Of a stretch of DNA of 42,458 nucleotides, positions 3,085 to 36,078 are shown in pieces. This DNA comes from Marivita sp. (GTDB taxonomy: Bacteria; Pseudomonadota; Alphaproteobacteria; Rhodobacterales; Rhodobacteraceae). The notes below the pieces were generated by a model, which was not told where the DNA came from, made no database searches, and saw only the letters and a program-made list of their open reading frames with translations. Within the stretch, counting starts at the first letter, position 1. Every line of letters starts with the position of its first letter. The DNA lies in contig NZ_JALEGT010000092.1 in the NCBI RefSeq assembly GCF_022763305.1, positions 1-42,458 on the forward strand, written 5' to 3'. The translations under genes and the position numbers were made by a program.

Positions 3085-4850
3085 ACCGCGACCGCAAGAT
3101 CGAGGTTGGCGCACTGCGCCGTCTCTTCCGGCGCATGGGCCCGCATCTCGGCGACCACCGTCGCAAGCTGACCTTCGGGTTTCTGGCAATGATCGGCGTC
3201 GCGCTGGCGGAAATCATGCGGCCCTGGCCGATCAAGGTCGTCTTTGATGGCATTCTCATTCCTCAGGACAACCCCGATGCCGTCACCGGCTGGCTGCTGT
3301 CCGTCTTCGGTACCGGGGACGCGCTTCTGGGGGCGATGGCGGCTGCCATCCTTTGCATCGCGCTTCTTGGAGGCGCGATGGGCTTTGCCCAGGCCTACCT
3401 GATTGCGGCCGTGGGTCAGAAGGTGGTCGCTGCAATCCGGCTGGATCTTTACCGTCACGTCCACCGTCTGTCCCATTCCTTTCACGACACCGCGTCGTCA
3501 GGCGATATCATCGCGCGGCTGACCGGCGACGTGCGGATGATGCGCGATCTGCTGATTGATGCGGTCGTGTTTTTCGCTGCGCGTGGTCTGGTGATCCTGC
3601 TGACCATCGCCGTGATGCTCTGGATGGACTGGCGGCTGACGCTCGTGGCTCTGACGATCCTTCCGGCGCTCTGGCTGGTCTCCCGTCATTTCGGCAAGCG
3701 CATCAAGGGTGCTGCGCGCAAACAGCGCCGCAAGGAAGGCAAGATTGCCGTGGTGATGACCGAAGGCATCTCGGCCATCACTGTCGTCAAGGGCTTTGCC
3801 CGCGAGTCCTACGAAGAGGCGCGCTTCGCCAAGCAGAACAACTCGTCCGCCGAAGCCGGGGTTGTGACCACACGTTTGGCCGCAAACATGGACCGCGTCA
3901 CGCAGGTTCTGCTGGCTTTAGGGACGGCGGTTGTTGTCTGGTTCGGTGTCACGCAGGTGCGCGCGGGCGCGATCAGCCCGGGCGATCTTCTGGTCTTCAC
4001 AGCCTACCTGTCCTCCCTCTACAAACCGATCCGCAAGATGGCTGCGATGACCGCTCGGGTTGCCAAGGCCACGGCCAGCGGGGAACGTCTGCTCGAGATC
4101 TTCGATCTGCAGCCGGACATCGCCGAGAACCCGGATGCGAAACCGCTCAAACACCCGAGCCATGGTTCGATCCGGTTTGACGAGGTCAGCTTTGCCTACG
4201 CCGGCGCGACCGTCCCTGTGCTCGATCGCGTCATGCTCGACCTTCATCCCGGCGAAGTCACGGCGCTGATAGGGCCAAGCGGCGCGGGCAAGTCGACGCT
4301 CGCGCGGCTCTTGATGCGGTTCTATGACCCGACCCATGGCACCGTGCGCATCAACGGGCAGGACATCCGGAACGTGACCCTCGACAGTCTGCGCAGCAGC
4401 ATCGCGGTTGTCTTGCAGGACAGCGTTCTGTTCGGCACCAGCGTGCGGGACAACATTGCCTATGGCCGACTGGACGCGACCGAGGACGAGATCATCGCCG
4501 CTGCCAAGGCCGCCGAGGCCGATGGGTTTGTCCGCAACCTGCCCGAAGGGTATGACACCGTTCTGGGCGAGCGGGGCGAGACAGTGTCAGGCGGGCAGCG
4601 CCAGCGCATCGCCATTGCACGGGCAATCCTGCGGGATGCACCGATCCTCATCCTCGACGAACCACTCACCGGGCTTGATCCGGTCACGGCCCGGGGGTTG
4701 CTGGCCAGTCTGCGCCGCGCCGCCGCCGGACGTACAACCCTTCTTGTCGCTCATGACGACCTGACCCTGTCTCTGGCGGATCGCATCTTGCGGGTCGAAG
4801 GGGGGCAGCTGACCGAGGTCACGCACGCAAGGCGGAGCCTTTCGGCATGA
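3081..4850 (+). CDS. ABC exporter, fused permease and ATPase (ABCB/MsbA type)
   Basis: A 589-residue half-transporter expected to dimerise and move a lipid-linked or amphipathic glycan across the inner membrane. Residues about 25-310 form a six-helix ABC exporter membrane domain (early segments LTFGFLAMIGVALAEIM and MAAAILCIALLGGAMGFA). The ATPase follows. Walker A is GPSGAGKST at 398-406, the Q-loop region is AVVLQDSVLFG, the signature is VSGGQRQR at 502-509, Walker B is ILILDEP at 522-528 with catalytic E527, and the switch histidine is H558. The D-loop reads TGLDP rather than the SALD usual in ABCB exporters. ATG 3081 overlaps the upstream stop (ATGA), and its own stop overlaps the next ATG at 4847. 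Its place among four glycosyltransferases points to glycan or glycolipid export. Confidence 0.93.
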   Translation: MNRDRKIEVGALRRLFRRMGPHLGDHRRKLTFGFLAMIGVALAEIMRPWPIKVVFDGILIPQDNPDAVTGWLLSVFGTGDALLGAMAAAILCIALLGGAMGFAQAYLIAAVGQKVVAAIRLDLYRHVHRLSHSFHDTASSGDIIARLTGDVRMMRDLLIDAVVFFAARGLVILLTIAVMLWMDWRLTLVALTILPALWLVSRHFGKRIKGAARKQRRKEGKIAVVMTEGISAITVVKGFARESYEEARFAKQNNSSAEAGVVTTRLAANMDRVTQVLLALGTAVVVWFGVTQVRAGAISPGDLLVFTAYLSSLYKPIRKMAAMTARVAKATASGERLLEIFDLQPDIAENPDAKPLKHPSHGSIRFDEVSFAYAGATVPVLDRVMLDLHPGEVTALIGPSGAGKSTLARLLMRFYDPTHGTVRINGQDIRNVTLDSLRSSIAVVLQDSVLFGTSVRDNIAYGRLDATEDEIIAAAKAAEADGFVRNLPEGYDTVLGERGETVSGGQRQRIAIARAILRDAPILILDEPLTGLDPVTARGLLASLRRAAAGRTTLLVAHDDLTLSLADRILRVEGGQLTEVTHARRSLSA

Positions 4851-6049
4851 CGCGTGCGCTGGACCTTCTTGAGCGGATCGACTGCCCGCAGCAGGCGCCG
4901 GGCCTCATGGCAGCGATGTGCGAGGTCTTTGGCGAACAGCCTGCGTCGATCACGCTCGAGCGGACGCATTTCCCAGGCAACAAACCGGTTCAGCAGGTTC
5001 TATGCGCTGCGTTTCCGGATGGCCGGCACGAAACCGTGTTCGCGGAAGAGTGTCCGATTGCGCCGGGGGCGCATGTCGAGAGCATCCGGGCAAGTCTCGG
5101 CAAGAGCCGCAACGGCCAGCGCCCGGGCCTCCACGCCACGTCGGTGGTCGCGTCCCAAGCGATGGGGCTGGTCTTGCGCAAGCCTGGGCTGGACGAGCGC
5201 CTTCCCGGGCTGCGTCTGCTGCACGATCCGGTCTTTGCCCGCGCGGCCCTGCGAAACCTTTTTGGCACAGAGGTTGGGCCGGTTGTCGTCGATCTCGTTG
5301 CGCATCGGCTGGGAAAGCGCGCCGTGGTGCGCATCAGAGGGGCGGGTCTCGACGTCTTTGTCCGGCTCCGCGCCATCAAGAGCGAAGATGGAGATATGCG
5401 CCTCAAGCGCCACCATGCGCTGTGGCACAGCCTGTCGCGTCAGACGGACCTCCGCATTCCCGAGCCTTTGGGAGCCTTGCCGGACATCGGTGCTGCGGTT
5501 TTCGGCGTCCTGCCGGGGGATCCCGCAGACCTTCGAGCACGGGACGTCGGATCGGTTGCCCGCGCCGTCTCAGCACTTCAGGGGCTCGAACTGGCTGGAC
5601 TTCCAGTGCATTCGGGCACCGATGAGGCGCGCCTGCTGTCCCTGTGGCTGGAGCGGTGCCGCATCGGGCAGCCCGAGATCGCCCGACGCATCGCGCCGGA
5701 CCTGATCGCGGTGATGGCGGCACTGCAACAGGCTTCGGCCACGCCACGCCCCTGTCACCGGGACCTGCACGAGAAGCAGATACTGGTCTCGGACGGTGTT
5801 GCAGGGCTTTTGGACTTCGACACGCTGTGCCTGTCTGACCCGGCGCTGGATGTGGGCAATCTGCTGGCGCATCTGGTCCTTGCAGGTCAGGACGAAGCAC
5901 CGCTTCGGTCAGCGTTCGATCTGCCCGGGATCGGGCTCTGGCGCCGCGCGGCACTGTTCCGGCTGGCCATGATCTATGCGTTTACCTCAACACCCGAGGC
6001 GGTGCTGGATCGACTGATCGAAGAGGCGCAGGCCGATGCTGAGGATTGA
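4847..6049 (+). CDS. APH-fold phosphotransferase
   Basis: A 400-residue protein with an aminoglycoside-phosphotransferase/choline-kinase fold in its C-terminal half. The catalytic loop is HRDLHEKQIL (H304, D306, with H308 in the loop) and the metal-binding motif is LLDFDTL (D323, D325), followed by the DPALDVGNLLAHLVL helix typical of APH proteins. The N-terminal 180 residues are not recognised. In APH enzymes the first Asp is the catalytic base and the second binds Mg-ATP. Both are present, so it is probably an active kinase of a small molecule or sugar rather than a resistance gene. It sits between the exporter and a second APH-like gene in the glycan operon, which suggests it phosphorylates a glycan precursor or adds a phosphate decoration. 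Confidence 0.85.
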   Translation: MTRALDLLERIDCPQQAPGLMAAMCEVFGEQPASITLERTHFPGNKPVQQVLCAAFPDGRHETVFAEECPIAPGAHVESIRASLGKSRNGQRPGLHATSVVASQAMGLVLRKPGLDERLPGLRLLHDPVFARAALRNLFGTEVGPVVVDLVAHRLGKRAVVRIRGAGLDVFVRLRAIKSEDGDMRLKRHHALWHSLSRQTDLRIPEPLGALPDIGAAVFGVLPGDPADLRARDVGSVARAVSALQGLELAGLPVHSGTDEARLLSLWLERCRIGQPEIARRIAPDLIAVMAALQQASATPRPCHRDLHEKQILVSDGVAGLLDFDTLCLSDPALDVGNLLAHLVLAGQDEAPLRSAFDLPGIGLWRRAALFRLAMIYAFTSTPEAVLDRLIEEAQADAED

Positions 6050-7190
6050 AGATGCGCATCTGCCGGGGCTCGCCGACCTGAGCGGGGATCGCTTGCGCGC
6101 CATCACAGGCGCGGACGAGGTGGACCTGCTGCGCCTGCGCTACCGGCCCGGCAAGCGGGCGATCCTGCATGTGGCTACATGGAAGAATGGGCACAGCGCG
6201 GAAGGGACCCTGTGGTTCTTTGGCGGTGACAAGGGTCGGCGCATCGCCCGCCGCAATCGCATGGCCTCCTCTTTCGACCCGGAGACGGCAGCCCTGTTCG
6301 AGGCGTTTCCGCAGGACCACCGGATGCCGCAGATCCGCAGGTTTCTTGCAGATTACGAGTCGGTTCTGCAAAAAATGACAGGCCGCCGAGCCTGCGGAGT
6401 GCCTGTCCTTCTCCGTTACCGGCCGGGACTGTCCTGTACCTTTCGGTGTGCGATTGATGGACCGGACCCGGTTTATGTGAAGCTGATCAATGACGATGAT
6501 CCGCAGCGTCTGCAGACTGCCAACCGGGCAATGCAGGATGCGCTGGCGTCATCAGGCACCACGGTCGCGCCGGTCCTTGGGATCGACAGGGATCTCGGGG
6601 CCGTCGCATATGGCAGCGCACCGGGCCTGCCGCTCGATCAGGCCGTCTCCGACATCACCAGCCTCGCACCACTTGACCGCACCATCGCGGGGCTGCGCCA
6701 TTTCTGGGCCGCACCGATCCCATGCGGTCGGACGCTGGACCCCGAGATGCTTCTGGCGCGCGCCCGCGAGAGCGTGGATTTCGTGGCCATCACGGCTCCG
6801 GACTGCCTGTCGGATGTCGCCAGCATTCTGCGCAACCTCGAAAAACGCCGTCCCGACGCCCCGTTGCGGCCCATCCACGCGGATATGAAACTCGAACACG
6901 TTGTGCTCGATCCGGACCAGACAACTCTGATCGACACCGAAAGCGTGTCACTTGGCCTGCCGGACTACGATCTGGCACAGCTCTTCGGGCGGATTTGGCA
7001 GGCCGAACAAGAGAGTCGCTTCCCAAGCCAATTCGCCGAGGCCGCTGCGGCGCAGGTGCGGAGCGCGGCTGGCACGTCCTTTGACTGGTGTCTCGGCATT
7101 GTCGCTGTCCGGCTTCCGAAATTCTACGCGCAGCGCCCCGGACCCGACACGGACAGCGCCATCCGCGCCATCCTCGGGCGGCTTGCATGA
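6036..7190 (+). CDS. Second APH-fold phosphotransferase
   Basis: A 384-residue phosphotransferase-family protein that overlaps its upstream neighbour by 14 bases. The C-terminal lobe holds HADMKLEHV (H281, D283, K285) and then LIDTES (D300), the APH catalytic-loop and metal-loop pair, followed by DYDLAQLFGRIW, the helix where APH proteins keep a conserved Asp. The order is right but the loops differ from the neighbouring paralogue: HADMKLEH instead of HRDLHEKQ, and DTES instead of DFDT. Two such divergent kinases side by side are likely to act on different substrates or in sequence. The N-terminal part includes RLRYRPGKRAILHV, compatible with the kinase N-lobe. Substrate unknown. Confidence 0.83.
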   Translation: MLRIEDAHLPGLADLSGDRLRAITGADEVDLLRLRYRPGKRAILHVATWKNGHSAEGTLWFFGGDKGRRIARRNRMASSFDPETAALFEAFPQDHRMPQIRRFLADYESVLQKMTGRRACGVPVLLRYRPGLSCTFRCAIDGPDPVYVKLINDDDPQRLQTANRAMQDALASSGTTVAPVLGIDRDLGAVAYGSAPGLPLDQAVSDITSLAPLDRTIAGLRHFWAAPIPCGRTLDPEMLLARARESVDFVAITAPDCLSDVASILRNLEKRRPDAPLRPIHADMKLEHVVLDPDQTTLIDTESVSLGLPDYDLAQLFGRIWQAEQESRFPSQFAEAAAAQVRSAAGTSFDWCLGIVAVRLPKFYAQRPGPDTDSAIRAILGRLA

Positions 7191-8281
7191 TGTTGCGTGT
7201 GGCGCATGTGCTCAATTCGCCGGGGCATGGGGGTGTGCCACGGGTCGTGGACGCGCTGATCCGGCACAGCGACCCGATGCGCATTGCGCCTCTTGTCTTC
7301 TATCTCAAGCCGGGGCAGGGGACACCCGTCAGCCCGGACATCCCCATCCGGGTCGCGACCACGGCCAGCAAGGCCAGCGCGATGACGGAGTTGGTGGCAT
7401 TCCTCGATCATCACGGGATTGACGTCCTGCATACCCATTCCTACCGACCCAACCTCTTCGGCCGTATGGCAGGCGCGATGCTCCGTCCGGCCGGACTCCG
7501 GATCGTGGCGCATTACCACAACGACTACGACGACAAGTGGGACGCCGAGGCGCTGTGCGTGGAGCGCCGTCTTGCCGCGATCACCGATACCGCATTCGCA
7601 GTATCCGCATCGGTTGCCGCCCATGTGGCCGAACGTGTCGGGCTTGTCTGTGAGGTGGCCGAGAACGGGATTGACCGGGCGCGGGTGATCGGTGGCGACA
7701 AGGCACGCGGGCGCACTGCGCTTGGGCTCGGGGCGTGCGGCCCCGTGATCGGGCTTGTCGGTCGGGTGTGCCGTCAGAAGGGTGTCGATATCTTTGTCGA
7801 TGCAGCCATTGAGCTCGCCTCGACCCTGCCACAGGCGCAGTTCGTGATCATCGGCGACAGGGAGGATGCAAGCCTTGCCGCTGATCTCTGGTCCCGGATC
7901 GACTTGGCCGGTCTGACCGGTCGCTTCCGCTTTCCCGGCCACCGCGAGGACATGGCCGATATGTTTGCCGCACTTGATCTCCTGGCAGCTCCGTCGCGCT
8001 GGGAAGGTTTCGGCCTGATGCTGGCCGAAGCCATGGCGGCGGGTTTGCCTGTGGTCGCAAGCCGCGTCGGTGGCATTCCCGATGTGCTTGGTGAGGCCGG
8101 TATGCTGATATCGCCGGAGGATCCCACCGCCCTTGCCGATGCAATCGGGGCGGTTTTGTCCGACAGTCAACGGCGCGCGGCTATGATCAATCTGGGACAG
8201 ACGCGCGCCGCACGGTTCGACTGGGCGCGCACGGCGGGCCGGATCACGCAGGCCTATGAAGGCGTGCGGATGGCGGCATGA
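7187..8281 (+). CDS. Glycosyltransferase family 4
   Basis: A 364-residue GT4 glycosyltransferase. The start at ATG 7187 forms an ATGA overlap with the upstream stop, and the protein then begins MMLRVAHVLNSPGHGGVPRV, the typical first strand and glycine loop. An upstream in-frame start at 7088 would add 33 arginine-rich residues with no homology. The donor domain has GLVGRVCRQKGVDIFVDAA and RWEGFGLMLAEAMAAGLPVV, the latter with the E-x7-E signature, then the usual GGIPDVLGEAGMLISPEDP. It is the fourth transferase of the operon. The stop overlaps the phosphatase start at 8278. Confidence 0.9.
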   Translation: MMLRVAHVLNSPGHGGVPRVVDALIRHSDPMRIAPLVFYLKPGQGTPVSPDIPIRVATTASKASAMTELVAFLDHHGIDVLHTHSYRPNLFGRMAGAMLRPAGLRIVAHYHNDYDDKWDAEALCVERRLAAITDTAFAVSASVAAHVAERVGLVCEVAENGIDRARVIGGDKARGRTALGLGACGPVIGLVGRVCRQKGVDIFVDAAIELASTLPQAQFVIIGDREDASLAADLWSRIDLAGLTGRFRFPGHREDMADMFAALDLLAAPSRWEGFGLMLAEAMAAGLPVVASRVGGIPDVLGEAGMLISPEDPTALADAIGAVLSDSQRRAAMINLGQTRAARFDWARTAGRITQAYEGVRMAA

Positions 8282-9158: not shown

Positions 9159-12100
9159 ATGGGTCGCTTTTACAATCCCCTTGGGGCACGCGTCTTCTAT
9201 TGCCTGTCGATAATAACGTTTATTTTCATGCCTCTATGGGCATATGCACAAGATCGGAACATCGCGGAACCGATAGCGTGTCAAAACGTTCACGACATCG
9301 TCAACGAGAGCGAGGCTGGAAGTCGGTTCTCCCGTACGTTGTGTGCCGACATTGTCGCGATGGACCAGATGCTGGTGTACAACCGGTTTGGCAGCTTCAA
9401 TCCTTACGGCATGATCTACGCGTTGCGGCGCGACGTAATCAGCGCCTCCGAACCGGTCCGCGCGCTGAGCGCAGATCAATGCGATGACAGCCTTGGCATC
9501 GAAAGCCACGGCACCGATCTGGCGCCCGGAAAGCTGCGCCTGCGCGACTGCAAACGACCCCGTCCTCTCACGCTGCGGGCCAATGTGGGAGATATCCTGC
9601 ATGTGCGGCTGACGAATTTCCTGCGGGAAAAGCCGCCGGGCTATTCCGAGACCTTCTGCAAGACATCCGCAAATGAACCCGGCATGCCCTTCGGCTCGGA
9701 CTTCCACGGCCTGCGGGCCGCCGTGTCGGAAGGCACGGCGTCGCAGGTTCAGCATGGTGAGGCGTCCTGCCGTCCGGCCAACGGGTCGCCGCAAGCCGAT
9801 ATCGACGGCAACTGGCCTCTGACCCGTGGCGCGAACATGGCAATCCAGGGTCTGAGCACCTTCGGCCTGCGCAACGGTCGCGTGGTCGAGGCACATGATG
9901 CCTGCAAGGGGTTGGCGGCGATCCCGCCGGGCACGGGCATCGACTGCTACTACAGGATTGAACGCGAAGGTCCGTTCTTCATGGCCAGCACCGGCGCGCC
10001 GTCTGGGGGGCAAGGCGATGGCGGCAGCCTCGTTCATGGGCTTTTCGGTGCGGTGATGGCCGAACCTGCGCAATCGCGCTGGTATCGCAGCCAGGTTTCG
10101 CAGGCGACCTTCCGGACGGTCTGGCGTGCGGCCGACAATGGCGTTCGGCATGCCATCCGGGCAGCCGATATAGACGATGCCAGCCGCTATGAGGCGGTTG
10201 CGCGGGATCCGGTTTCGGGAAAGTCGCTGCCGCTTTTGAACATGCTGGCACGGGTGGACCGTGTCGACGACGCGCTGCGCGAGGAGCAGCCCAATCTCTA
10301 TTTCGGAGAGGGCGTGTTCGACATCGTGCATGCCGACCTCAACGCCATTGTGCACCGCAACGACCGCGAAGTGGGCACGCCACTCACGTTCCGGGAATTC
10401 TCGGTGTTCTTCCATGACGAACTGAAGACGTTTTACCCCCGCAACTTTGAAGAGCTGGGTGCCTTCGGCGCCGGACAGCTGGCCGGAGTTCGCGACGGGT
10501 TCGCGATCAATTACGGGGCCAGCGGCATGGGCGACATGCTGATCGCCAACCGCAAGGGCATCGGCCCGACTGCGAATTGCCAGGAATGTCTTTACGAGGA
10601 ATTCTTCCTGACATCCTGGGCCAATGGCGATCCGTCCCTGCTGGAGCATTACAGCGACGATCCGTCAAACGTGCATCACTCGTACCTGAACGACGCGGTC
10701 GTCTTCCGGAACTTCCATGCGGGACCAAAGGAAACCCATGTCTTCCACTTGCATGCCCATCAATGGTTCGCGGGCAATGACGGCAATCGCGGGTCCTATC
10801 TCGACAGTCAGACCGTCGCGCCGCAGCAGGGGTTTTCCTACGACATCTATGGCGGCGGGCTCGAGGTCTATCATCGCGGGCTGCCCGGTGAGGAGGGCTG
10901 GTACGAGACCCTGGGCTCGGGCAACCGAAACAGGACCGTTGGGGACTCGATCTTCCACTGTCACCTCTACCCGCATTTCGCTCAAGGCATGTGGGAGCTC
11001 TGGCGCGTGCATGACGTGCTGGAAGACGGTTCCCGCAAACTGCCGGATGGCCAGTGGGAACCGGTTCTGTCGTTGGCCGAGATGGGAGACAAGATCAAGG
11101 CGCGCAAGCGGCCGGGATCGGTCGATCAGGAAACCGGACGCTGGATTGCGCCCGGTGCGGGGCTGAGCGGGCAGAATGTCGGAACACCCGTGCCCGCACT
11201 GGTTCCGCTGCCGGGACAGGCTTGGCCGGTCCTGCCCAGCTATCCCGAAGACGTCGCGACACTCGACGAAGAGGGCACCGTCACGGCGGACCCGGTCGAC
11301 GAGATCGCGACCTTTGCGGGATATCCCTTCTACATCGCCGGACAGCCTGGCCACCGTCCGCCGCAGGCGCCGATGGACATCGCCCGCGCGCTTGATGGGG
11401 ATCAGGTCACCGGCGAATACCTTGACGGCGGCATGCCTCGACATGTTGTGACAGATGACAGCAGCCGTGCCCTGCCGTTCAAACTGCCGCAACAGGTTGC
11501 CGATGACTTGGCCAGGGACACCGGAACACCCGATCTGGCCTCGGCCTTGTCTAGCCCCTCCGCAACCGCACGCGAGGCGTTGCAATCTCAGGTTCTCGCA
11601 ACGGCCCTTGCCCTTGGCGACATGAGCATGAAGCTCAAGGCACTGACCATCGACCTGCTGGAATACGACGGCGAACCCATCGAGCGCGCCGCGATGGCGT
11701 TTCATCACGACGGCGTTCTTCCCGGCGGCACGGCGCTGTCGGTGCTGGCACCGGATGGCAGCGGATCAAGCTTCCAGACGATCGGTGGCGGCTACCAGAC
11801 GCAGGGCGGTGCCAACCTCTTCACCGTCAACGGGGCGCCCGCCAAACCCGGCGCGCCGTTTGCCGATCCCTGTGGCGCGCCGTCTGCCTTCGGCCAGATC
11901 GTCCGTGACGACGCCGACAGCTACAGCTTTGTCTCGGGTGGAACGCAGTTCGAGATCCTTACCGTCGCCGGTGGTCAACCTCTGTCCGGTGGTCTGCCGG
12001 CCGGGGATGCGGAGGTGTCGAACTGGGTGGAACACCAGCGCACCGACAGCGCGCATTTCCCCAACGGTCCGCCCCGTCTGTATTACCTCGACGGCGGCGC

Positions 12101-15100
12101 GGCGCAGGAGATCCAGCGCGGTGCGCATGTCCTTGAAGGTGATCCGTTCCTCAAGGGCCTGAGCAACACGCAATTCACACCGGACCCCGCGGTTGTCGGA
12201 TACCGGCGCTATGAAGGCTCGGCCGTTCAGGTGGATCTCATCACCAATCGCGCGGGCTGGCATGACCCGCAGGCCCGGATCAATGTCCTGACCAACGCGT
12301 CCGGCGATTACGACGGATCGGACGGCTACAAGCAGGGTGGCGGGCGCATTTCGCCAAAGGTCACGGCCAGCGAAGAGCCGTTCTTCTTTCGCGCTCTGTC
12401 CGGCGAATGCATCGAGTTCCGTCACACCAACGAATTGCCGAAGGAACTGGAACTGGACGATTTCCAGGTCAAGACCCCGACCGACACCATCGGCCAGCAC
12501 ATCCATCTCGTGAAATTCGATGTGACCGCATCGGACGGGTCGGGCAATGGCTTCAACTACGAAGACGGCACGTTCGCTCCGGGCGAGATCGCGGCCCGCA
12601 TCTGTGCGGCCAAGAACACCAGCTCGGCCAGCCTTGTCAGCTTCACCCGCAGCCCCGGCGAACTGCTCATGCGCGAATATTCGGAGGCCGACAAAGGTGA
12701 CCTTTGCACCTTCGACACAGAGACCGAGCTGTGGAAGGTGAGCGAGGCCTATGATCACAAGATCTGGACCTTCACCCTGTCCAAGCATCGCGAGCTGTTC
12801 CAGACCACGACGCAACGCTGGTTCGCGGACCCGATCCTCTCGGACACGCGTGCACCGGATGACAGCGGTGGGGTGGGGAAGGCAGACAGGACTCTGCGGA
12901 CGGTGTTCAGCCATGATCATTTCGGCCCGTCCTCGATCCAGCAGCACGGCTTCTACACCGCACTCGTGATCGAGCCGCAATCGGCGCAGATCTGCGATCC
13001 GGACGACGGCACCTGCACGTCGCCACGCACGGATCGGGATCTGGTTCTGGCCAGCCCGGATGACGTGGGTGCGCGGAAGGTCATCGTCGATCTGATGCCG
13101 GTGGATACCGACGAGCTATCCTACCGCGAATTCGCGCTCTCCATCGCCGACTTCGCGGTGCTTTACGATCCGCGCAACAACGTGCCGGTGGATGCGGTCG
13201 AAAAGGCGCTGCTGGGCGGAGACACCCTGGCCATGAAAGGCATGCTGACACTTGCCTGCGAAGCCCGATACGGAGCCGAAGCGGCGCGGCTTGAAAAGGC
13301 CGGGCAACCGGCTTCCGATGTGGATGCCCGGTTGCAACGCATGGCGGATATCTGCGGGTCGGCCCTGACCAAGGACAGTGGCGGATGGAAGATGCTGTTC
13401 CCCGGTCTGTCGCCTGTGCATGGCGAACCGGGCGATCTTCCGCCCGCATGGCTCTCTGCGGGGCGACCGGGCGATCCGGCGCACCAGGCGGGTCTTGCGC
13501 CGGCGCTGCTGGACGAAATCACCATCGAACATCACGGCACCGACATGTCGGCACCGGATTACCTGCAAACCTATCTGACGGAATACCGTGCCAAGGCGGC
13601 AGGCCATCTGCCCGGACCACGGGCGCTTCTGGCAAGCCCGGTTTCGCCGCCGGCGCGGCCCGAAAGCATCTCGGTCGACCATCACGATCCTTATCTGGTG
13701 AATTACAGGGGCGAGCCTTTCCCGCTGCGGCTGGGAGAGGATTCCAGCGCGGGGTCGTCCTGTGACCTGACGGCACGGGTCGAGGATTGGGTGACACCGC
13801 TGCTGACCGGTGTGACCGACCGCTGCGAGATCAGCCGGCAGAAAACCGGCGATGCGGGCGATCCGGCGAACGTGATGCTGTCTTTGCTGCACAAGGATCC
13901 CGCCACGCCGATCTTCCATGCTCTGGACAACGACCCGCTGCAATTCCGCCTGATCCAGGGCGCTCAGGAGGTGCAGCACACTTTCACCGTCGAAGGAATG
14001 ACCTGGCCGCGCAACATCGACCAGATGTTCCCAAGCGCGACAAGCGAACGCGACGCGATCACGCCGCTCGATACGCTGGTGCGGACCTGCGAGACCTGGC
14101 AGGGCGCCGCCAGCAGCGTGCGGATGGCCCGTGCTGGCCGACCGGATGAATACCGCACATGGGCGGCCAGCGGGGCCACCGCTTGGCCTGCCGGTTCCTC
14201 CGAGCGCGCGTTCTGGGAGGACATGGAGGCGCAACTGGCCCAGTGCTTCAACGCGGACGGGCGCATTGCCGCGCAAGAGATCGGGATTTCGGAGCATTTC
14301 GAATTCCGCGCGGCCTTCCTCTATGACAACAACTTTGGAGGGCTTGGCGAAAAGGTGCGCAACAACCGGTTTGCTCCCGGGCGCATCACGACCATTCAGA
14401 GCCTGCTCGACCTTTTGCTGGAACGGCGCGAACTGCTTGTGCTGCGCACGGCCGTGTCGGACACGCCCTACCATTTCGGATCGCAGGATGCGCTTTGGAA
14501 CGGGGCATGGGGCCTGATCCGTGTCGCGGCAGAGAACCGCAAATACTTTGCCTACGTGGCCCTTCTGGAAGAGATCGACCGGACCATCGCGCAGGTCGAA
14601 CCACTGGTGCGCGAAAACCCGGAGGCCGCTCCACCGCGCGACCTGCTCAATGGCGCGACGCGGTTGCTGCGTGCGCCGCTCGATACGATCCTCGACCGGG
14701 TGCCGGAGCTTGCCATCGATCCGCAGATCCGCGCCCTGCCGCGCTCGCTTGGCGTGCCAGAGCAGCCGCAGCAGGAGCCCCTGCAGGAACCGGCACAACG
14801 GGTCTTGCCGCTCGAACGCTTCGAACAGGAAGCGCAGCGCAGCATTCAGGCCCTCCCGGACCTGCGACAGGACCGCATCCTCAAGCGGTTCCAGCTGGAC
14901 GTGCCTGATCGCAGGCTTCCCAACCTGCGCCCGGAGCTGAACCAGTTGGATCGCTTCGTGCGGGGCAAGACCGATGTGCCCGACTATCAGCCGGTGGCCG
15001 AATGCCCTGCAAATGCGCCGAACGTCTACACCTCCATCGTTGCGATCGAAAGCCGCACCGTCTTTCCTCGGCAACCGCAAACGCGGTACTCGGAAACGCT

Positions 15101-17330
15101 CGTCGATCCTGACGGTCTGTTCTTTGCACTGGTCGATCCGCGCGTGCTGATCCGGCCGGAAGACCCAAAGAGCGTGTCTGATCTGGACATCGAGGATCGG
15201 ACCAATTGGGACGCGATACCGCTGTCGCGTGTGGTCGCAGCCGTCCGGCAGTTCTACGACAAGCCCGAGCCTCTGGTGCTGAACGTGAATGCCGGGGATT
15301 GCGTGTTTGTCACGCTCCTGAATGCCCTGCGTTACCAGGACGGGCGGATCGCCGGGCTGGCCGATGGGACGGGCGATGCCATGATGCCGGGCATCACGTC
15401 GCTCAACACCGAACGCCCATGGGACGGCCTGTCCGAACCGGATGACGCGGCGCATCACATGCTGACCAATGCGGACCGGACCAAGGATGTCGTGCCGTCG
15501 GCGCGCCTGTCGGTCACGCTGCCCCTGCCGATCCTGACCAAGCAAAGCAGCTACGGTCGTCCTTACGGGCGCAACCCGATCTGGGCACTCAGCGGCATTC
15601 CCGCCGACCAGCGGGACCCGACGCTCTCTATCCGGGATTTGACGAACCGGCTGGATGCACCGCGCGTGGCCGAGATCGAACAGTTCCAGTTCTATGCTGG
15701 TCTGGCCTTCGCGGACTACCGCTATGCCGTTCCGACACCTCTGGTGGCTGATCTCGCGACACCCACGGGACCCGCGGCACCGGTCCAACCGGCCAGCTTC
15801 ATCGAGGACCTGGGGCAGCGGATCGCCATTCCCGCAGGCATCGCCAACCTGCCGATACGGACAGCCCCCGGGGTGCCTGATGTCATGCTGGGCGACAGCC
15901 TGCTGCAATTGCGCGACCAGCGCAGCGACAGCGTCGATCAGTTGCGCAGGGCGCTTCAGCCGTCGGTCACGGCACCGCCTGCCGACCTCGTGCCTGTTCC
16001 CCCCGGCGTTCAGGGCGGCCTGAGCGGCGTGCTGCGGGACTTGGATCAGAGGCCGCAGATCGCGGCACCGCCGGCTGGAACCATCCGTCTGCCAACCCGT
16101 GATCCGGTCACGCTGCCGAATGTCACAACCAACACCATTGTCATTCCGGGAGACCCGGTAGACGTTGCCAATGGCACCCTGATTGATCGGAGGGATACGG
16201 CGCGCTCTCCGGCGCAGAACCGAGAACTTGCACGCATATTGAACGATTTCAACCAAAGGCTCGACACGGAGATTGGTGGTCAGGACAGTCTCACGATCCT
16301 GCGCAAACAACTGCAGACGCATTTCGTCCCTTACGCGTTCGGTGCGCTGCCGCTCAAGTCCTTTGGCGACGTGATCGGCCATCCCACGCATGGGTTGATC
16401 GGCGCGATCACCGTGGTGCCCCAGAACGCGGCGATTTCGGATGCGCGCGGTCGCAAGGTCCGCTTCGACACCTGCGAGAACCGCCTTGTTGCACCAGGGC
16501 TGACGATCAAGCCCGAGCTGCGCCTATTCGATCTTGGGCCGGCCCAGGCGCAGCGCTGGCAGGAGCTTGGCAACCTGCCGAACCGGACGATCCGTCTGCT
16601 GTGCGAAAGCTATGTCGTCGTGCCGCGCACGGGCGCGCGGGCCGATTGGTCGCCGATGTGGACCTCCTCGCTGACGGCCAAAGGGCCGGGTGGCGAAGGC
16701 GAGCACCGGATCCGCCAGTTCACCCTGTTCTGGCAGGATGGTCTCGGGCAACGGGATCGGAACACCGCAGACCTTTGGGAGCTGGGCGCTTCGAACGAAC
16801 GCCTTGTCAAGGACTGCGCGATCTGCGACGACAGCTATGACTTTGGTGACAAGGGCATCAGCTATCTGAGCGAGCCGTTCCATGTCAGGTTGCGGGACAC
16901 CAACCCGTCACCCATCGAAAGCCATTTCAACCTCAATGAAAAGGATTTCGGGACTGCGTTCTGGCGCCTGTCGCCCAATGAGCTGCCCCCGCGCACCAAA
17001 GCGCCGATGCCGGTGCTGCGTGCGACAGCGGGCGAGGAAGTGGTCGTCCACGTCGTTCACCCCGGAGGCCGGGCGCGGCAGCGCGCCTTTGCCACCATCG
17101 CCCAGGATTACAGCGATCTCTTCCCCGGCTTCGGCTTCCCGCGTGCCGCACTTCTGGCACCGGGCAAGGCGATCACCGCGTCGTTGACCAAGACGGTGGA
17201 ACCGGGCTGCTATCTGTGGTTCGACGGGCCACTGCATCTGCGCGCGGGCGGCGTCTGGGGCCTTCTCGACGTGCTGACCTCGGCACAGGCCCGTGATCCG
17301 GAGGCGACGGCATGCGGACCGCGGCGCTGA
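9159..17330 (+). CDS. Giant exported multicopper oxidase, MnxG/manganese-oxidase-like
   Basis: A 2723-residue secreted multicopper oxidase. ATG 9159 is chosen over TTG 9141 because GGAG lies 7 bases upstream; it gives a Sec signal peptide ending LWAYA-QD near residue 31. Numbering from this start, the copper motifs are HVFHLH (H527, H530, H532; loop L3) and HCH-x3-H-x4-M (H600, C601, H602, H606, M611; loop L4, complete type-1 site). They are followed by QHIH (H1114, H1116; L1) and SHDHFG (H1252, H1254; L2). L3/L4 therefore precede L1/L2, as recalled for MnxG-type Mn(II) oxidases. The motifs GISEHFEF and the QH-TFTVEGM segment (1606-1614) also fit that family. The N-terminal L1/L2 positions look vestigial (DFHG at 183, no HxH near 271-293). 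About 1000 further residues hold a Pro/Gln-rich linker (around 1860-1960) and degenerate cupredoxin-like segments ending in HVVH (2631-2634). Bacillus MnxG is only about 1200 residues. Substrate (Mn, Fe or organic) is inference. Confidence 0.9.
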   Translation: MGRFYNPLGARVFYCLSIITFIFMPLWAYAQDRNIAEPIACQNVHDIVNESEAGSRFSRTLCADIVAMDQMLVYNRFGSFNPYGMIYALRRDVISASEPVRALSADQCDDSLGIESHGTDLAPGKLRLRDCKRPRPLTLRANVGDILHVRLTNFLREKPPGYSETFCKTSANEPGMPFGSDFHGLRAAVSEGTASQVQHGEASCRPANGSPQADIDGNWPLTRGANMAIQGLSTFGLRNGRVVEAHDACKGLAAIPPGTGIDCYYRIEREGPFFMASTGAPSGGQGDGGSLVHGLFGAVMAEPAQSRWYRSQVSQATFRTVWRAADNGVRHAIRAADIDDASRYEAVARDPVSGKSLPLLNMLARVDRVDDALREEQPNLYFGEGVFDIVHADLNAIVHRNDREVGTPLTFREFSVFFHDELKTFYPRNFEELGAFGAGQLAGVRDGFAINYGASGMGDMLIANRKGIGPTANCQECLYEEFFLTSWANGDPSLLEHYSDDPSNVHHSYLNDAVVFRNFHAGPKETHVFHLHAHQWFAGNDGNRGSYLDSQTVAPQQGFSYDIYGGGLEVYHRGLPGEEGWYETLGSGNRNRTVGDSIFHCHLYPHFAQGMWELWRVHDVLEDGSRKLPDGQWEPVLSLAEMGDKIKARKRPGSVDQETGRWIAPGAGLSGQNVGTPVPALVPLPGQAWPVLPSYPEDVATLDEEGTVTADPVDEIATFAGYPFYIAGQPGHRPPQAPMDIARALDGDQVTGEYLDGGMPRHVVTDDSSRALPFKLPQQVADDLARDTGTPDLASALSSPSATAREALQSQVLATALALGDMSMKLKALTIDLLEYDGEPIERAAMAFHHDGVLPGGTALSVLAPDGSGSSFQTIGGGYQTQGGANLFTVNGAPAKPGAPFADPCGAPSAFGQIVRDDADSYSFVSGGTQFEILTVAGGQPLSGGLPAGDAEVSNWVEHQRTDSAHFPNGPPRLYYLDGGAAQEIQRGAHVLEGDPFLKGLSNTQFTPDPAVVGYRRYEGSAVQVDLITNRAGWHDPQARINVLTNASGDYDGSDGYKQGGGRISPKVTASEEPFFFRALSGECIEFRHTNELPKELELDDFQVKTPTDTIGQHIHLVKFDVTASDGSGNGFNYEDGTFAPGEIAARICAAKNTSSASLVSFTRSPGELLMREYSEADKGDLCTFDTETELWKVSEAYDHKIWTFTLSKHRELFQTTTQRWFADPILSDTRAPDDSGGVGKADRTLRTVFSHDHFGPSSIQQHGFYTALVIEPQSAQICDPDDGTCTSPRTDRDLVLASPDDVGARKVIVDLMPVDTDELSYREFALSIADFAVLYDPRNNVPVDAVEKALLGGDTLAMKGMLTLACEARYGAEAARLEKAGQPASDVDARLQRMADICGSALTKDSGGWKMLFPGLSPVHGEPGDLPPAWLSAGRPGDPAHQAGLAPALLDEITIEHHGTDMSAPDYLQTYLTEYRAKAAGHLPGPRALLASPVSPPARPESISVDHHDPYLVNYRGEPFPLRLGEDSSAGSSCDLTARVEDWVTPLLTGVTDRCEISRQKTGDAGDPANVMLSLLHKDPATPIFHALDNDPLQFRLIQGAQEVQHTFTVEGMTWPRNIDQMFPSATSERDAITPLDTLVRTCETWQGAASSVRMARAGRPDEYRTWAASGATAWPAGSSERAFWEDMEAQLAQCFNADGRIAAQEIGISEHFEFRAAFLYDNNFGGLGEKVRNNRFAPGRITTIQSLLDLLLERRELLVLRTAVSDTPYHFGSQDALWNGAWGLIRVAAENRKYFAYVALLEEIDRTIAQVEPLVRENPEAAPPRDLLNGATRLLRAPLDTILDRVPELAIDPQIRALPRSLGVPEQPQQEPLQEPAQRVLPLERFEQEAQRSIQALPDLRQDRILKRFQLDVPDRRLPNLRPELNQLDRFVRGKTDVPDYQPVAECPANAPNVYTSIVAIESRTVFPRQPQTRYSETLVDPDGLFFALVDPRVLIRPEDPKSVSDLDIEDRTNWDAIPLSRVVAAVRQFYDKPEPLVLNVNAGDCVFVTLLNALRYQDGRIAGLADGTGDAMMPGITSLNTERPWDGLSEPDDAAHHMLTNADRTKDVVPSARLSVTLPLPILTKQSSYGRPYGRNPIWALSGIPADQRDPTLSIRDLTNRLDAPRVAEIEQFQFYAGLAFADYRYAVPTPLVADLATPTGPAAPVQPASFIEDLGQRIAIPAGIANLPIRTAPGVPDVMLGDSLLQLRDQRSDSVDQLRRALQPSVTAPPADLVPVPPGVQGGLSGVLRDLDQRPQIAAPPAGTIRLPTRDPVTLPNVTTNTIVIPGDPVDVANGTLIDRRDTARSPAQNRELARILNDFNQRLDTEIGGQDSLTILRKQLQTHFVPYAFGALPLKSFGDVIGHPTHGLIGAITVVPQNAAISDARGRKVRFDTCENRLVAPGLTIKPELRLFDLGPAQAQRWQELGNLPNRTIRLLCESYVVVPRTGARADWSPMWTSSLTAKGPGGEGEHRIRQFTLFWQDGLGQRDRNTADLWELGASNERLVKDCAICDDSYDFGDKGISYLSEPFHVRLRDTNPSPIESHFNLNEKDFGTAFWRLSPNELPPRTKAPMPVLRATAGEEVVVHVVHPGGRARQRAFATIAQDYSDLFPGFGFPRAALLAPGKAITASLTKTVEPGCYLWFDGPLHLRAGGVWGLLDVLTSAQARDPEATACGPRR

Positions 17331-19135
17331 TCGCGGCCTGCCTTGCCGCACTCGCGGGAGGGGAGAGCCGGGCACAGGCCAGCCTGCTGGCCGAACTGTC
17401 CCTGCATGATCCAGTCACCGGCGCGGCCACCGTTGCGGATGATGGCGAGCCGGTGCGCCTTCGGGTGCGCCTGACCGATCCGGTCACGGGTCTGCCCCCT
17501 CGGGGTGTGGAGCTTCTGGGATGGGTGCGCGCTGTCGCGCCGGACAATCCCGGTTGCGAACGCGCCGCACAGAACTACCGCGCGACCCGTCGCACGCCCG
17601 TGGGATCCGTCGATCTGAACGGTATTCTGCTTGCCACCGTCAACCGGGATGCCACGCTGAGCGTGATCGACCCCAAGCTGAACCTCTACTCGTCGAACAT
17701 GGTCGCCGCGCATCGGCTTGATATGGACCCCGGCGTGGTTGCTGTCAGCCCCAGACAGATGAGCGCCTATGTCGCCGATCCGGACAGCGGCACCATCGTC
17801 AAGGCGCGCCTGACCGGGCCGGATCGCACGATCCTGGCCGAGGGTCTTGGTGGCATCGCGTCGATGGTTGCGGTCAGCAGCGGTGATCTCTGGATCGGAG
17901 ATGATGCCGGTCGGCTGTCGCGTCTGGGACCGGATGGGCGTAGGATCGACAAGATCACCGTCGGGGCAGGGCGGGTGGTGGTCCAGACCCCGCTCGACAC
18001 CGAAAATGACCGTGTTGCGGCATATGTGCCCGAAGGCGCGGCCCTGCTGCTCGACGGTGTGACCGGACACCCGGTTCTGAGCACCGCATTTTCCGCTCCG
18101 ATCACGGATGTGACGATTGTGGGCGAAGACGGCTTGCTGGCGGTTCTCAAGGACAGCGCGGTTGCAGAGATGCGCTATGCCGACGCGCCCGATGTCCCGA
18201 TCATGATCCAGCTGGGCACATCCTTTGCGCGTGTCTCAACCGGACCCGATGCCCGTATCGCGCTGGCCTACACACCCGGTGACAGCATTGTGGCGCTCAT
18301 CGACCTTGCACTGGGCCGCGTCGTGCTGTCGCTGGAATTGACCGGGGCGACGATCAGCGAAGTGACCTTCACCGACAATGCAGCTTTCATCCTCAGCCAT
18401 GACGGCGGGTTTCTGGGTGCGGTTGATCTGGCCACGGTGGCACTTGGCAAACCGGCGATCCTGCGCAAGATCGACCTCGGCGCAAAGACCGAACGCCCCG
18501 GTACGGGCGACGGGCTGCTCGTGCCACTGTTCCCTTCACCGCAGGTGATCGCGGTCGAACCGCGCTTCCAGACCGGTTGGCTGGTGGGCGAGGTGGCCTC
18601 GACCGTGGAGATGCCGCCCATGGACTCGATCCGTCTGCGCGGAGGTGTTCCGCAGTCCGTGCATGTCGTCGATCGCAGTTTCCAGGAGATCGAGACCGGT
18701 GTCTTCGAGACGGTCTGGGCATTCGATGCTGGGGAACGGGAACTGATCCTGACCACCTATAGCGGCCAGTTGTCCACCTGCGTGCCGTTCCACGTGCGCG
18801 GCGAAGTGGAGCAACTGGCCCTCACGCCGGTCCGGTTGACGCCGCAGACCACGATGGCCCCGGTGGCGGGGCAGCCCTTTGACCTCGCGTTCCAGGTGAC
18901 CGGGCCGGACGAAACCGAGCTGCCCGTGTCCAGTCTGACCCTTGTCGTGCCGAGCATGATGTCCGGCTGGGTCGGAGAGGCGGTGGCGACGGCGGATGAC
19001 GCAGGCGTGCTGCGCGCCCGGGTGACGTTTCCACATGAAGGCCCGTTTGTCGTTCAGCCCGTGGACCTGCCGGCCGGTCTGGCACTGCGCTCGGCCCTGA
19101 TCCTCCAAGCCGGTTCTGAAAGGAAAGACCCATGA
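17312..19135 (+). CDS. Exported beta-propeller-like protein (YVTN/cytochrome-D1-like)
   Basis: A 607-residue periplasmic protein. The signal peptide is MRTAALIAACLAALAGGESR with likely cleavage after ..SRA. The middle region has repeated blade-like units with small strands and the turn DPDSGTIVKARL (also SVDLNGILLATVNRDATLSV and DLWIGDDAGRLSRLGPDG), resembling YVTN/NHL-type or cytochrome-d1-type propellers. No haem motif is present. The last 130 residues look like an Ig-like beta domain (LTPVRLTPQTTMAPVAGQPF onward). Its start overlaps the end of the oxidase gene by 19 bases and its stop overlaps the SCO gene, so it is co-translated with both. A scaffold or docking role for the oxidase is a reasonable guess; no enzymatic function can be assigned. 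Confidence 0.75.
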   Translation: MRTAALIAACLAALAGGESRAQASLLAELSLHDPVTGAATVADDGEPVRLRVRLTDPVTGLPPRGVELLGWVRAVAPDNPGCERAAQNYRATRRTPVGSVDLNGILLATVNRDATLSVIDPKLNLYSSNMVAAHRLDMDPGVVAVSPRQMSAYVADPDSGTIVKARLTGPDRTILAEGLGGIASMVAVSSGDLWIGDDAGRLSRLGPDGRRIDKITVGAGRVVVQTPLDTENDRVAAYVPEGAALLLDGVTGHPVLSTAFSAPITDVTIVGEDGLLAVLKDSAVAEMRYADAPDVPIMIQLGTSFARVSTGPDARIALAYTPGDSIVALIDLALGRVVLSLELTGATISEVTFTDNAAFILSHDGGFLGAVDLATVALGKPAILRKIDLGAKTERPGTGDGLLVPLFPSPQVIAVEPRFQTGWLVGEVASTVEMPPMDSIRLRGGVPQSVHVVDRSFQEIETGVFETVWAFDAGERELILTTYSGQLSTCVPFHVRGEVEQLALTPVRLTPQTTMAPVAGQPFDLAFQVTGPDETELPVSSLTLVVPSMMSGWVGEAVATADDAGVLRARVTFPHEGPFVVQPVDLPAGLALRSALILQAGSERKDP

Positions 19136-19686
19136 TGCGCTTCAGCCTTCTTCCCCTTGTCGGAGTGATAGCGTCGGCTGCTCTGGCCAGCGACGTGTCG
19201 CACGGAGCCTTTGCGATTGAACGGTTGACGGTGCCACCCGTGACGCTGATCGATCAATACGCGCAGGAGCAGCCTTTTCATGGCCCTCTGACCGAGGGAC
19301 AGGTGCTGGTGATCAACTTCAACTACACCACCTGCGAGTCGATCTGCCCGATCGGCAATGACGTCATGGCCGACCTGGATGACATGCTGTCCAACGAGGC
19401 GCCCGTGCGACTGATGTCGATCACCATCGACCCCGGACGGGACACCCCAGCGCAGATGCGCAAGGCGGCAGACACTTTCGGTGCCAGTGAGCGCTGGGCC
19501 TGGCTGACCGGCAGCCCCGGCGAAGTCTCCCGGCTGCTGGCGGCGTTCGATGCGGATTACGCGAATATCGTCCTGCACGAACCCGTCTTTCTTGTCGGTG
19601 ACCTGGGCACGCAGCAATTCTACCGGTCACAGTCCATGCCCTCGCCCGAAGAACTGGCAGGCCTGGTGGGCACTCTGATCCGGTGA
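19132..19686 (+). CDS. SCO1/SenC/PrrC-family copper chaperone
   Basis: A 184-residue exported thioredoxin-fold protein of the SCO family. The signal peptide is about residues 1-20 (..AALAS). The copper site is complete: CESIC at 68-72 gives the C-x3-C pair, and H149 in NIVLHEP is the third ligand. FNYTTCESICP and SITIDPGRDTPAQM are diagnostic SCO segments. SCO proteins deliver copper to cytochrome oxidase CuA sites or act as periplasmic thiol reductants. Here no cytochrome oxidase is nearby and the gene overlaps both neighbours (ATGA at 19132, GTGA at 19683), so copper loading of the giant oxidase is the likely job. The Bacillus mnx operon also contains an SCO-like gene, which supports the parallel. 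Confidence 0.93.
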   Translation: MMRFSLLPLVGVIASAALASDVSHGAFAIERLTVPPVTLIDQYAQEQPFHGPLTEGQVLVINFNYTTCESICPIGNDVMADLDDMLSNEAPVRLMSITIDPGRDTPAQMRKAADTFGASERWAWLTGSPGEVSRLLAAFDADYANIVLHEPVFLVGDLGTQQFYRSQSMPSPEELAGLVGTLIR

Positions 19687-20909
19687 GTGCCCGCGCCGCG
19701 CTGCTGATGCTCGTTCTTGCTGCCCGGATGGCAGTCGCGGACGAGGGGCATGATCTGTTTACAGGGCAATCCGTTGCGGTGTCCGATCAGAGCGCGGAAC
19801 GAAAGCTCGCGCGCTTTCCGTGCCACAGGTGCCATGGGCGCGACGCTCTGGGAGGGGTCGAGGGCGATGTGCCGCCCATCGACTGGCGGTTTCTGTCGCG
19901 CGCCGCCGCCGGTCGGCCTGCCTATACGGTCGAGCTGTTCCATCGCGCCGTGACAGAGGGGCGGGACGCCGGTGGTCGAGAACTGAGCCGCTTGATGCCA
20001 CGCTACGCCTTGTCGGAAGGGGAAACCGCGCAATTGGCCAATTACCTTGGTCGGCTGTACGATCTGCAGCGGCAGGGTGTATCCCCTGACGAGGTGCGGA
20101 TCGGGGTCGCGGACCTGCCTTTCGGCGACGATCTGTCAGGCATCTATCGCACCACGTTGGCCAAGGCGCTTGAGGATCGGTTGGGCGGCGATCATGTCTA
20201 TGGTCGCCGGATCAATCTGGTGCCGGTCGATCCTGCGAACGGAGAGGCTGACAGCTTGGCCGTTCTCGGTCTCTCGGTCGCTGCCGCGGCGGTGTTCACC
20301 AATCGGGGCATACCGGTTCTGGCCCCGATCGGAGCCCTGACCGGTGATGAAGACAGCAGTATAATGCGGGGCATCGCGCCCAGCCGCGAGGCGCTTCATG
20401 CCGCCTTGGCGACACGCATTGCCGAAGCTGGCACAGGCCCGGTGGCCATACTCGCGTCCGACGACGCGGAGCGGCACGCGCTGGAACTCGCGCTGTCGCT
20501 GGCCGCGCCGGGCCGACCCATCGCATCGCATTCGAATGACGCAGAGGACATCATTGCCTTACCCGGAACGGACCTCAACGTCGCGCCTGACTGGACCGGA
20601 CGGGTTTGGATCACCTGGCAGTCTGTGGCGCAGCGCATGCCGTTGCCCCAAAAGGCAAAGGTCATGGTCGCAATCGAGACACCCCGGATCATCGACACCG
20701 CAATCGCGGCTCAGGTGCACCCGCTTGTCATTCATGCACAGCAGGTGGGGATCATGCTGGCCGAGGCGCTCAAGGCGGCGGGGCGCGATGTGACCCGCGC
20801 GAAGCTGTTGCAGGCGCTGGCCGATACCGTGCTGGACGATATCGGCCTTGATTACACACAGGTGCCCCTCACCGGGACCGACCACATTGCCCTGATCCAA
20901 CTGCGCTAG
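19683..20909 (+). CDS. c-type cytochrome fused to a periplasmic-binding-protein-like domain
   Basis: A 408-residue exported protein starting at GTG 19683, overlapping the SCO stop as GTGA. A short signal peptide ends near AVA-DE (residues 19-20). Residues about 22-120 form a class-I cytochrome c: haem motif CHRCH (C47, C50, H51) and axial Met105 in LMPRYALSEGE. From about residue 137 (VRIGVADLPFGDDLSGIYRT) to the C-terminus the protein resembles a type-1 periplasmic-binding-protein/receptor-ligand fold, ending with an AEALKAAGRDVTRAKLLQAL helix typical of branched-chain amino-acid-binding proteins. The fold is about 270 residues, shorter than the usual 350 or so. As last gene of the oxidase operon it could take electrons from, or present a ligand to, the giant copper oxidase. 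The domain order is unusual. Confidence 0.85.
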   Translation: MSARAALLMLVLAARMAVADEGHDLFTGQSVAVSDQSAERKLARFPCHRCHGRDALGGVEGDVPPIDWRFLSRAAAGRPAYTVELFHRAVTEGRDAGGRELSRLMPRYALSEGETAQLANYLGRLYDLQRQGVSPDEVRIGVADLPFGDDLSGIYRTTLAKALEDRLGGDHVYGRRINLVPVDPANGEADSLAVLGLSVAAAAVFTNRGIPVLAPIGALTGDEDSSIMRGIAPSREALHAALATRIAEAGTGPVAILASDDAERHALELALSLAAPGRPIASHSNDAEDIIALPGTDLNVAPDWTGRVWITWQSVAQRMPLPQKAKVMVAIETPRIIDTAIAAQVHPLVIHAQQVGIMLAEALKAAGRDVTRAKLLQALADTVLDDIGLDYTQVPLTGTDHIALIQLR

Positions 20910-33099: not shown

Positions 33100-33111
33100 G
33101 AGGGATGGTCC

Positions 33112-34901: not shown

Positions 34902-35012
34902 CGGCGCACTCCTCGGGGTCGGGTCTGAGTGGCGTTTGCAGGTCCCGCGCCCGGACCATGCGATCCGGATGCGGGAGCGTCAGGCGTGAGTGGTGGTCGC
35001 GAAGGCCGGCAA

Positions 35013-36056: not shown

Positions 36057-36078
36057 GGTCTCCTCCTTGGACATTGTG

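Follow-up and report, generated by a model that had tools for sequence, protein, structure and literature searches.

A single reading frame of 8172 bases, located in the 42,458-nucleotide stretch of DNA analyzed here (the window), raises the question of what kind of enzyme a 2723-residue multicopper oxidase is, what its long C-terminal part contains, and which substrate it may oxidize. The reading we favor, at a probability of roughly two in three, is that of an exported, six-domain MnxG-family oxidase that heads a four-gene metal-oxidation operon, the metal most probably being Mn(II). The gene, poorly annotated and in some clade members carried on plasmids, encodes an enlarged variant of an enzyme type that is already known. 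The oxidase and its export signal are located as follows.

9159..17330, + strand: giant MnxG-family multicopper oxidase, 2723 aa (open reading frame, NCBIfam and PDB matches, homologue alignment)
9159..9251, + strand: probable Sec signal peptide, residues 1–31 (...AYAQ/DRN; from the sequence, by eye)

The initial annotation had described one uninterrupted frame with a signal peptide and four copper motifs, and each of these points stands. The frame starts with ATG at 9159, which is preceded by GGAG at a seven-base spacer, and contains zero internal stops; the N-terminus resembles a Sec signal peptide. In the translation, every motif position is exact: L3 is H527-x2-H530-x-H532, L4 is H600-C-H602-x3-H606-x4-M611, L1 is H1114-x-H1116, and L2 is H1252-x-H1254. 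All four loops of a multicopper oxidase are therefore present, with ten His and one Cys, plus Met611. These 12 residues (H527, H530, H532, H600, C601, H602, H606, M611, H1114, H1116, H1252, and H1254) are identical in 67 of 67 rows of a first alignment, comprising the window and 66 homologues (81 family frames from 80 loci, minus 14 frames cut by contig ends and one duplicate). They stay invariant in 77 of 77 rows after the addition of 10 further sequences, one a Priestia MnxG-like protein, and His534 is conserved in 76 of the 77. The motifs are not a product of chance, as relatives are encoded by 135 of the 139 stretches that a pattern search of genome contigs picked out, with best-segment identities of 59 to 32% among the best 80 of the 135. 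The oxidase gene also contains a 1091-aa open frame in antisense (13116–16391, − strand), most likely a by-product of high GC.

Pfam returned no family for the oxidase at E ≤ 1. The NCBIfam MnxG model NF041487 (1894 positions) matches it with E = 1.8e-144 and 482.8 bits, the five matching stretches lying within residues 58–2646. Bacillus MnxG (PDB 9bxa) is the sole PDB sequence match at E ≤ 1 (phmmer, E = 2.1e-59). These two matches agree with the MnxG-type assignment and the comparison with Bacillus MnxG that had been proposed for this gene. Strong stretches of the 9bxa alignment hold L3/L4 (77.5 bits) and L1 (58.3 bits), while L2 lies within a weak stretch of 7.5 bits. Homology thus extends across the catalytic pair, the L2 stretch alone being weak, and L3–L4 precede L1–L2 in both proteins. 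The motif order noted earlier holds, but its description as permuted does not, since MnxG proteins normally have their loops in this order. We also considered loss of the type-1 His in Bacillus MnxG, where Ala occupies the His606 column; this was rejected, since the Ala of 9bxa is the engineered H340A substitution and His is found in the Priestia homologue.

Two observations on kinship weigh against the favored reading. The score of 482.8 bits falls far short of the NF041487 equivalog cut-off of 3100 bits. No sequence above this cut-off was found in any of the 398 or of the 369 genomes searched, and the relatives that we label MnxG-type (L122, L123, and L124), on account of their NF041487 scores of 2414, 2183, and 1156 bits (best piece), are all below it as well. 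In a tree of the catalytic pair (76 rows, 571 columns, SH-aLRT support, midpoint root, Priestia row left out), the MnxG types lie in a separate 12-row clade (support 100) that excludes the oxidase. The latter falls in a 24-row alphaproteobacterial clade (100) nested in a 35-row clade (99). Frames in the 24-row clade span 2177–2966 codons from stop to stop, so the true proteins are somewhat shorter. Judged by sequence, the protein is an MnxG-family multicopper oxidase in an enlarged alphaproteobacterial form, and it is very probably an active one.

Profile comparison suggests that the oxidase consists of six cupredoxin-like domains, arranged as a threefold repeat of an odd–even pair. The domain limits below were set by hand from the alignment.

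9321..10094, + strand: D1 (aa 55–312), cupredoxin-like, odd, without a copper ligand set (hhalign with D3 96.1% and with D5 99.3%; aligned residues)
10371..11078, + strand: D2 (aa 405–640), even, carrying L3 and L4 (alignment, profiles; 9bxa 180–367)
12171..13034, + strand: D3 (aa 1005–1292), odd, carrying L1 and L2 (9bxa 408–557, 58.3 bits, and weakly 565–607, 7.5 bits)
13791..14543, + strand: D4 (aa 1545–1795), even, without a full ligand set (profiles, alignment, model; 9bxa 659–733)
14991..16493, + strand: D5 (aa 1945–2445), odd, interrupted by a probably disordered insert at aa ~2188–2384 (profiles, model, blastp)
16656..17294, + strand: D6 (aa 2500–2712), even, without a copper ligand set (profiles, NF041487 stretch, aligned residues)

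Using hhalign with segment profiles all cut from one row set, the odd domains resemble one another (D1/D3 96.1%, D1/D5 99.3%, D3/D5 97.7%), as do the even ones (D2/D4 95.7%, D2/D6 96.3%, D4/D6 98.5%), while all nine odd–even pairs reach 7.1% or less; the underlying alignments are partial, covering 51 to 178 columns. Residues 2513–2646 of D6 additionally match NF041487 positions 1678–1803 (E = 2.0e-4). Structure models were made for residues 88–1287 (mean pLDDT 79.1, pTM 0.88) and 1524–2723 (pLDDT 72.8, pTM 0.77). In fold searches, 9bxa was the best PDB match of both, with E = 4.5e-25 and a TM-score of only 0.36 for the first and E = 1.5e-18 and 0.32 for the second. The odd/even profiles and the two fold matches agree with a count of six, and the low TM-scores count against the favored reading. 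The copper loops are modeled with block pLDDT values of 73 and 61 (L3), 55 and 62 (L4), 64 with 38 beside it (L1), and 58 (L2), so that the four-loop geometry is built from low-confidence loops (pLDDT 55–73) despite the pTM of 0.88.

A copper ligand set is kept only at D2/D3. The loop-aligned residues of D1, D4, and D6 form none; for D5, the loop comparison is confined to the part covered by the printed alignment. His1607 of D4, at the place of His527, is invariant in 63 of 63 rows. The vestigial loops ascribed to the N-terminus in the initial annotation correspond to the ligand-free D1, its degenerate C-terminal segments correspond to D4–D6 from residue 1545, and the number of cupredoxin domains, which it had left to be counted, comes to six in odd/even pairs. 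Ceruloplasmin provides a parallel for this plan. Its six cupredoxin domains alternate between odd, with L1/L2, and even, with L3/L4, and its trinuclear cluster lies between D6 and D1, whereas the cluster of the giant oxidase would lie at D2/D3. A threefold odd–even plan makes D2/D3, D4/D5, and D6/D1 equivalent interfaces, and the difference in motif order from ceruloplasmin would therefore require no circular permutation. Ceruloplasmin gave no PDB sequence match to the oxidase at E ≤ 1.

What, then, is the extension of about 1000 residues that the initial annotation had singled out? Residues from 1545 onward are D4, D5, and D6, which are also present in the alignment of shorter relatives, including L039 (frame of 1561) and L125 (2058). 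The extra residues are scattered. Counting stretches of 25 or more residues, we found 14 that are unique to the query in comparison with L122 and L123 (frames of 1980 and 2059), summing to 835 and 838 residues, and nine totaling 758 residues in comparison with L125; relative to the close relative L012 there are zero. The largest lie near residues 1347–1479, 1624–1675, 1799–1881, and 2190–2385. Two of the added or flexible regions are delimited here.

13197..13598, + strand: insert between D3 and D4 (aa 1347–1480), absent from L122, L123, and L125 (alignment, blastp)
14724..14978, + strand: probably disordered Pro/Gln/Arg-rich linker (aa ~1856–1940; pLDDT < 50 over most of it, composition)

The inserts in D4 at residues 1624–1698 and 1724–1762 are largely helical in the model, with mixed confidence, and the insert at residues 2188–2384 is modeled mostly below pLDDT 50. 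On this evidence, the supposed extension consists mostly of D4–D6, which look like the regular C-terminal half of an MnxG protein, together with about 758–838 residues in inserts dispersed along the sequence in comparison with the three shorter relatives. A unique functional extension of 1000 residues was accordingly rejected. The proposal that this part might house a substrate channel or mineral-binding surface is not supported: nine stretches examined for composition contain at most 4% His, at most 2% Cys, and 10–20% acidic residues, against whole-protein values of 2, 1, and 13%, and so lend no support to a mineral-binding surface. One result runs against the favored reading: the blastp matches of L122, L123, and L124 to the oxidase stop at about residue 1619, while those of L125, L127, and the giant plasmid proteins reach into D6. 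The kinship of D5–D6 is based on the multiple alignment, the model stretch with E = 2.0e-4, the profiles, and the fold matches.

Three genes follow the oxidase on the same strand.

17312..19135, + strand: 607-aa exported β-propeller-like partner (19-base overlap with the oxidase gene)
19132..19686, + strand: SCO1/SenC copper chaperone with CxxxC (4-base overlap; family match)
19683..20909, + strand: c-type cytochrome (CHRCH) fused to a periplasmic-binding-protein-like domain (4-base overlap; Peripla_BP_6 match)

Given the overlaps of 19, 4, and 4 bases, the four genes look like one coupled operon headed by the oxidase. For the 607-aa protein itself no family match was significant; it is named propeller-like because distant homologues match propeller repeat models. 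The Peripla_BP_6 match of the cytochrome fusion (E = 1.9e-5, 24.9 bits) is below the cut-off of 31.7. We counted partners on the same strand and within 6 kb at the 58 loci with at least 5 kb of downstream sequence. The propeller was found at 51, SCO at 42, the cytochrome at 39, and all three at 39. At the 16 testable loci of the giant group (L008–L029), which include two copies from a single organism (L027 and L029), the corresponding numbers are 16, 16, 15, and 15. At least one partner is missing at 19 of the 58 loci, which counts against the favored reading, and all three are missing at seven (L034, L035, L036, L038, L057, L077, and L086, the last with homologues upstream). CxxxC occurs somewhere in all 49 SCO-matching frames. 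The three-gene set spans Alphaproteobacteria to Acidobacteria and is complete at L123, L124, and L125; at L122 the contig ends after the propeller. The fusion of a single-heme cytochrome c to a periplasmic-binding-like domain (19683–20909) is itself kept across phyla together with the oxidase family. GC3 shows no foreign composition, with 0.74–0.77 for the operon genes and 0.69–0.79 for nine neighbors.

Directly upstream, window positions 689–8281 hold glycosyltransferases, an MsbA-like ABC exporter, and two phosphotransferase-like (APH fold) genes, a probable surface-polysaccharide cluster. Farther downstream (31408–38078), the presence of a TPP enzyme, TRAP transporter parts, an SMP-30/gluconolactonase, and a LysR regulator points to a cluster for the uptake of sugar acids. 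Outside the window, seven Cu-oxidase_2 matches on contigs C9, C11, C64, and C74 of this genome indicate several ordinary multicopper oxidases.

The distribution of the giant oxidase is patchy, and in some clade members the gene is plasmid-borne. Within the genus of the window, one of 17 genomes, that of the window itself, carries it (by the whole protein and by a highly conserved 140-residue piece), and a whole-protein search of 41 relatives likewise matched only this genome. Thirty plasmid records match the oxidase, and 14 of them cover 44% or more of the query. All 14 belong to alphaproteobacterial genera (by record taxonomy for five of them), and one of these five, Methylobacterium plasmid pLVM1, is typed as conjugative. 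Of the proteins of the five, L120, L121, L128, and L129 fall in the 24-row clade, and the Sphingobium plasmid protein L127 falls in the 35-row clade only, on a long branch. None of the 14 records names an oxidase (12 read "hypothetical protein," one is unannotated, and one has no feature there), so a candidate metal-oxidase gene of this kind is easily missed. Literature searches of open-license papers returned no earlier report of the clade. On the Shinella, Paracoccus yeei, and Roseivivax plasmids (L120, L121, and L128), a trypsin-like/serine protease gene lies divergently upstream of the oxidase and might process it; none is present among the window neighbors scanned. Jiella avicenniae has two copies (L027 and L029) on two contigs, with equal match length and identity and an identical frame, and Sorangium cellulosum So0157-2 (L075:9692–19070) has family members in tandem, with frames of 1633 and 1424 codons.

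In the mechanism we propose, a metal ion, most probably Mn(II), would donate single electrons to the type-1 copper of D2 (His527, Cys601, His606, and Met611). From there the electrons would reach a trinuclear cluster to which D2 contributes L3/L4 and D3 contributes L1/L2, and at this cluster O2 would be reduced to water. The D4/D5 and D6/D1 interfaces, having presumably lost copper, may act as a scaffold. The SCO protein would load the copper of the oxidase, and the propeller and the cytochrome c/binding-protein fusion may aid assembly or carry off part of the electrons. With respect to export, type II secretion is the Pseudomonas route. A T2SSG profile found no match in the genome of the window (the control matched in 2 of 14 genomes), so that the Pseudomonas-type route is not evident, which counts against the favored reading; one secretin match is present, in a 481-codon frame. 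A search for a MopA-type heme peroxidase was uninformative, as neither the genome nor the control gave a match.

Metal oxidation, and that of manganese in particular, is deduced from homology and operon context, with Mn(II) as the likeliest substrate; that it is the main one is probable. The same fold and chemistry could instead serve Fe(II), iodide, a phenolic, or another reductant in a general extracellular or periplasmic oxidase operon, a possible reading that we consider rather unlikely. The family is also represented in Nitrospira, methanotrophs, Acidobacteria, and Sorangium, which speaks for a substrate other than Mn(II). OmpB, a Geobacter homologue of MofA, is described as necessary for Fe(III) oxide reduction (PMC5566968), and the iodide oxidase IoxA, likewise from Alphaproteobacteria, is a multicopper oxidase whose gene is accompanied by three SCO homologues (PMC9415286). 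However, IoxA has a reported mass of 62 kDa (PMC9415286), far below that of a 2723-residue protein, and an identity with IoxA was set aside on size. The nearest characterized relative by both PDB sequence and NCBIfam is MnxG, and the propeller–SCO context resembles the P. putida mnxG operon as given in PMC8218464, both of which speak against another substrate.

The cytochrome c of the operon might feed the respiratory chain with electrons drawn from the metal or the type-1 copper, so that metal oxidation would conserve energy, a proposal that is compatible with the Mn(II) oxidase reading and that we regard as unlikely. MofC of the mof operon has been put forward as an electron carrier (PMC5566968), CxxCH is found in 39 of 39 downstream cytochrome-fusion frames, and the gene shares a 4-base overlap with the SCO gene. 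Yet all 77 rows keep the full set of trinuclear ligands, and an oxidase equipped in this way is expected to reduce O2 itself. The Mn(III/II) potential is also high for a c-type cytochrome to accept the electrons. A bolder version strikes us as quite improbable. In it, a metal-oxidation cassette concealed under "hypothetical protein" entries of plasmid records moves horizontally among Rhodobacterales and Hyphomicrobiales, a helical module (made of the D4 inserts and perhaps the one between D3 and D4) replaces the separate MnxE/MnxF subunits, and some of the manganese electrons pass to a dedicated cytochrome c and feed respiration. We give very little credence to a copper-handling or copper-resistance oxidase like CueO/CopA that was enlarged by insertions. 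The adjoining SCO gene and the multicopper oxidase motifs would fit such an enzyme, but Pfam Cu-oxidase is absent from the protein at E ≤ 1 despite seven matches elsewhere in the genome, copper efflux families are absent among the neighbors scanned (some small frames left out), and the MnxG kinship and six domains point elsewhere.

The clade is a source of candidate metal-oxidase genes in culturable Alphaproteobacteria. Type strains found to carry the gene include Rubrimonas cliftonensis DSM 15345, Defluviimonas denitrificans DSM 18921, and Roseovarius pacificus DSM 29589. Should manganese prove to be the substrate, sequence could be used to predict Mn-oxide formation and its spread on plasmids, and the shared propeller–SCO–cytochrome set makes a role for helper genes in bacterial manganese oxidation directly testable.

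Among known systems, IoxA shares an alphaproteobacterial origin and SCO neighbors with the giant oxidase and differs in its size of about 62 kDa and its ioxA–F cluster, a comparison made by description (PMC9415286). MofA of Leptothrix and OmpB of Geobacter, also compared by description only, are large oxidases whose operons, like that of the giant oxidase, hold a cytochrome c gene (mofC) and, in some, SCO (PMC5566968, PMC8218464); no mofB-type isomerase is present among the oxidase neighbors scanned. The MnxG of Bacillus sp. PL-12 (9bxa, the H340A mutant) has the same L3–L4–L1–L2 order and is the best fold match of both oxidase halves. It differs in length (1217–1227 residues versus 2723) and in the partner genes found, as Bacillus MnxG is described as working with MnxE and MnxF (PMC5622069), whereas the giant oxidase has propeller-like, SCO, and cytochrome genes; the neighbors scanned comprise glycosyltransferases, an ABC exporter, a His phosphatase, and these three. 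From the Pseudomonas-type MnxG, the giant oxidase is set apart by its score (482.8 versus 3100 bits with the equivalog NF041487), its position outside the 12-row clade of the MnxG-type rows, themselves also under the cut-off, and the 835–838 extra residues in 14 stretches relative to L122 and L123. For P. putida GB-1, the legend to the mnxG operon lists an ABC transporter, a β-propeller "lactonase family" protein, a SCO protein, and a SurA-like protein (PMC8218464), of which the propeller and SCO genes are found at the oxidase locus as well. Of the MnxG-type loci fetched, L123 and L124 also have the propeller–SCO–cytochrome set downstream, and L122 runs into a contig end.
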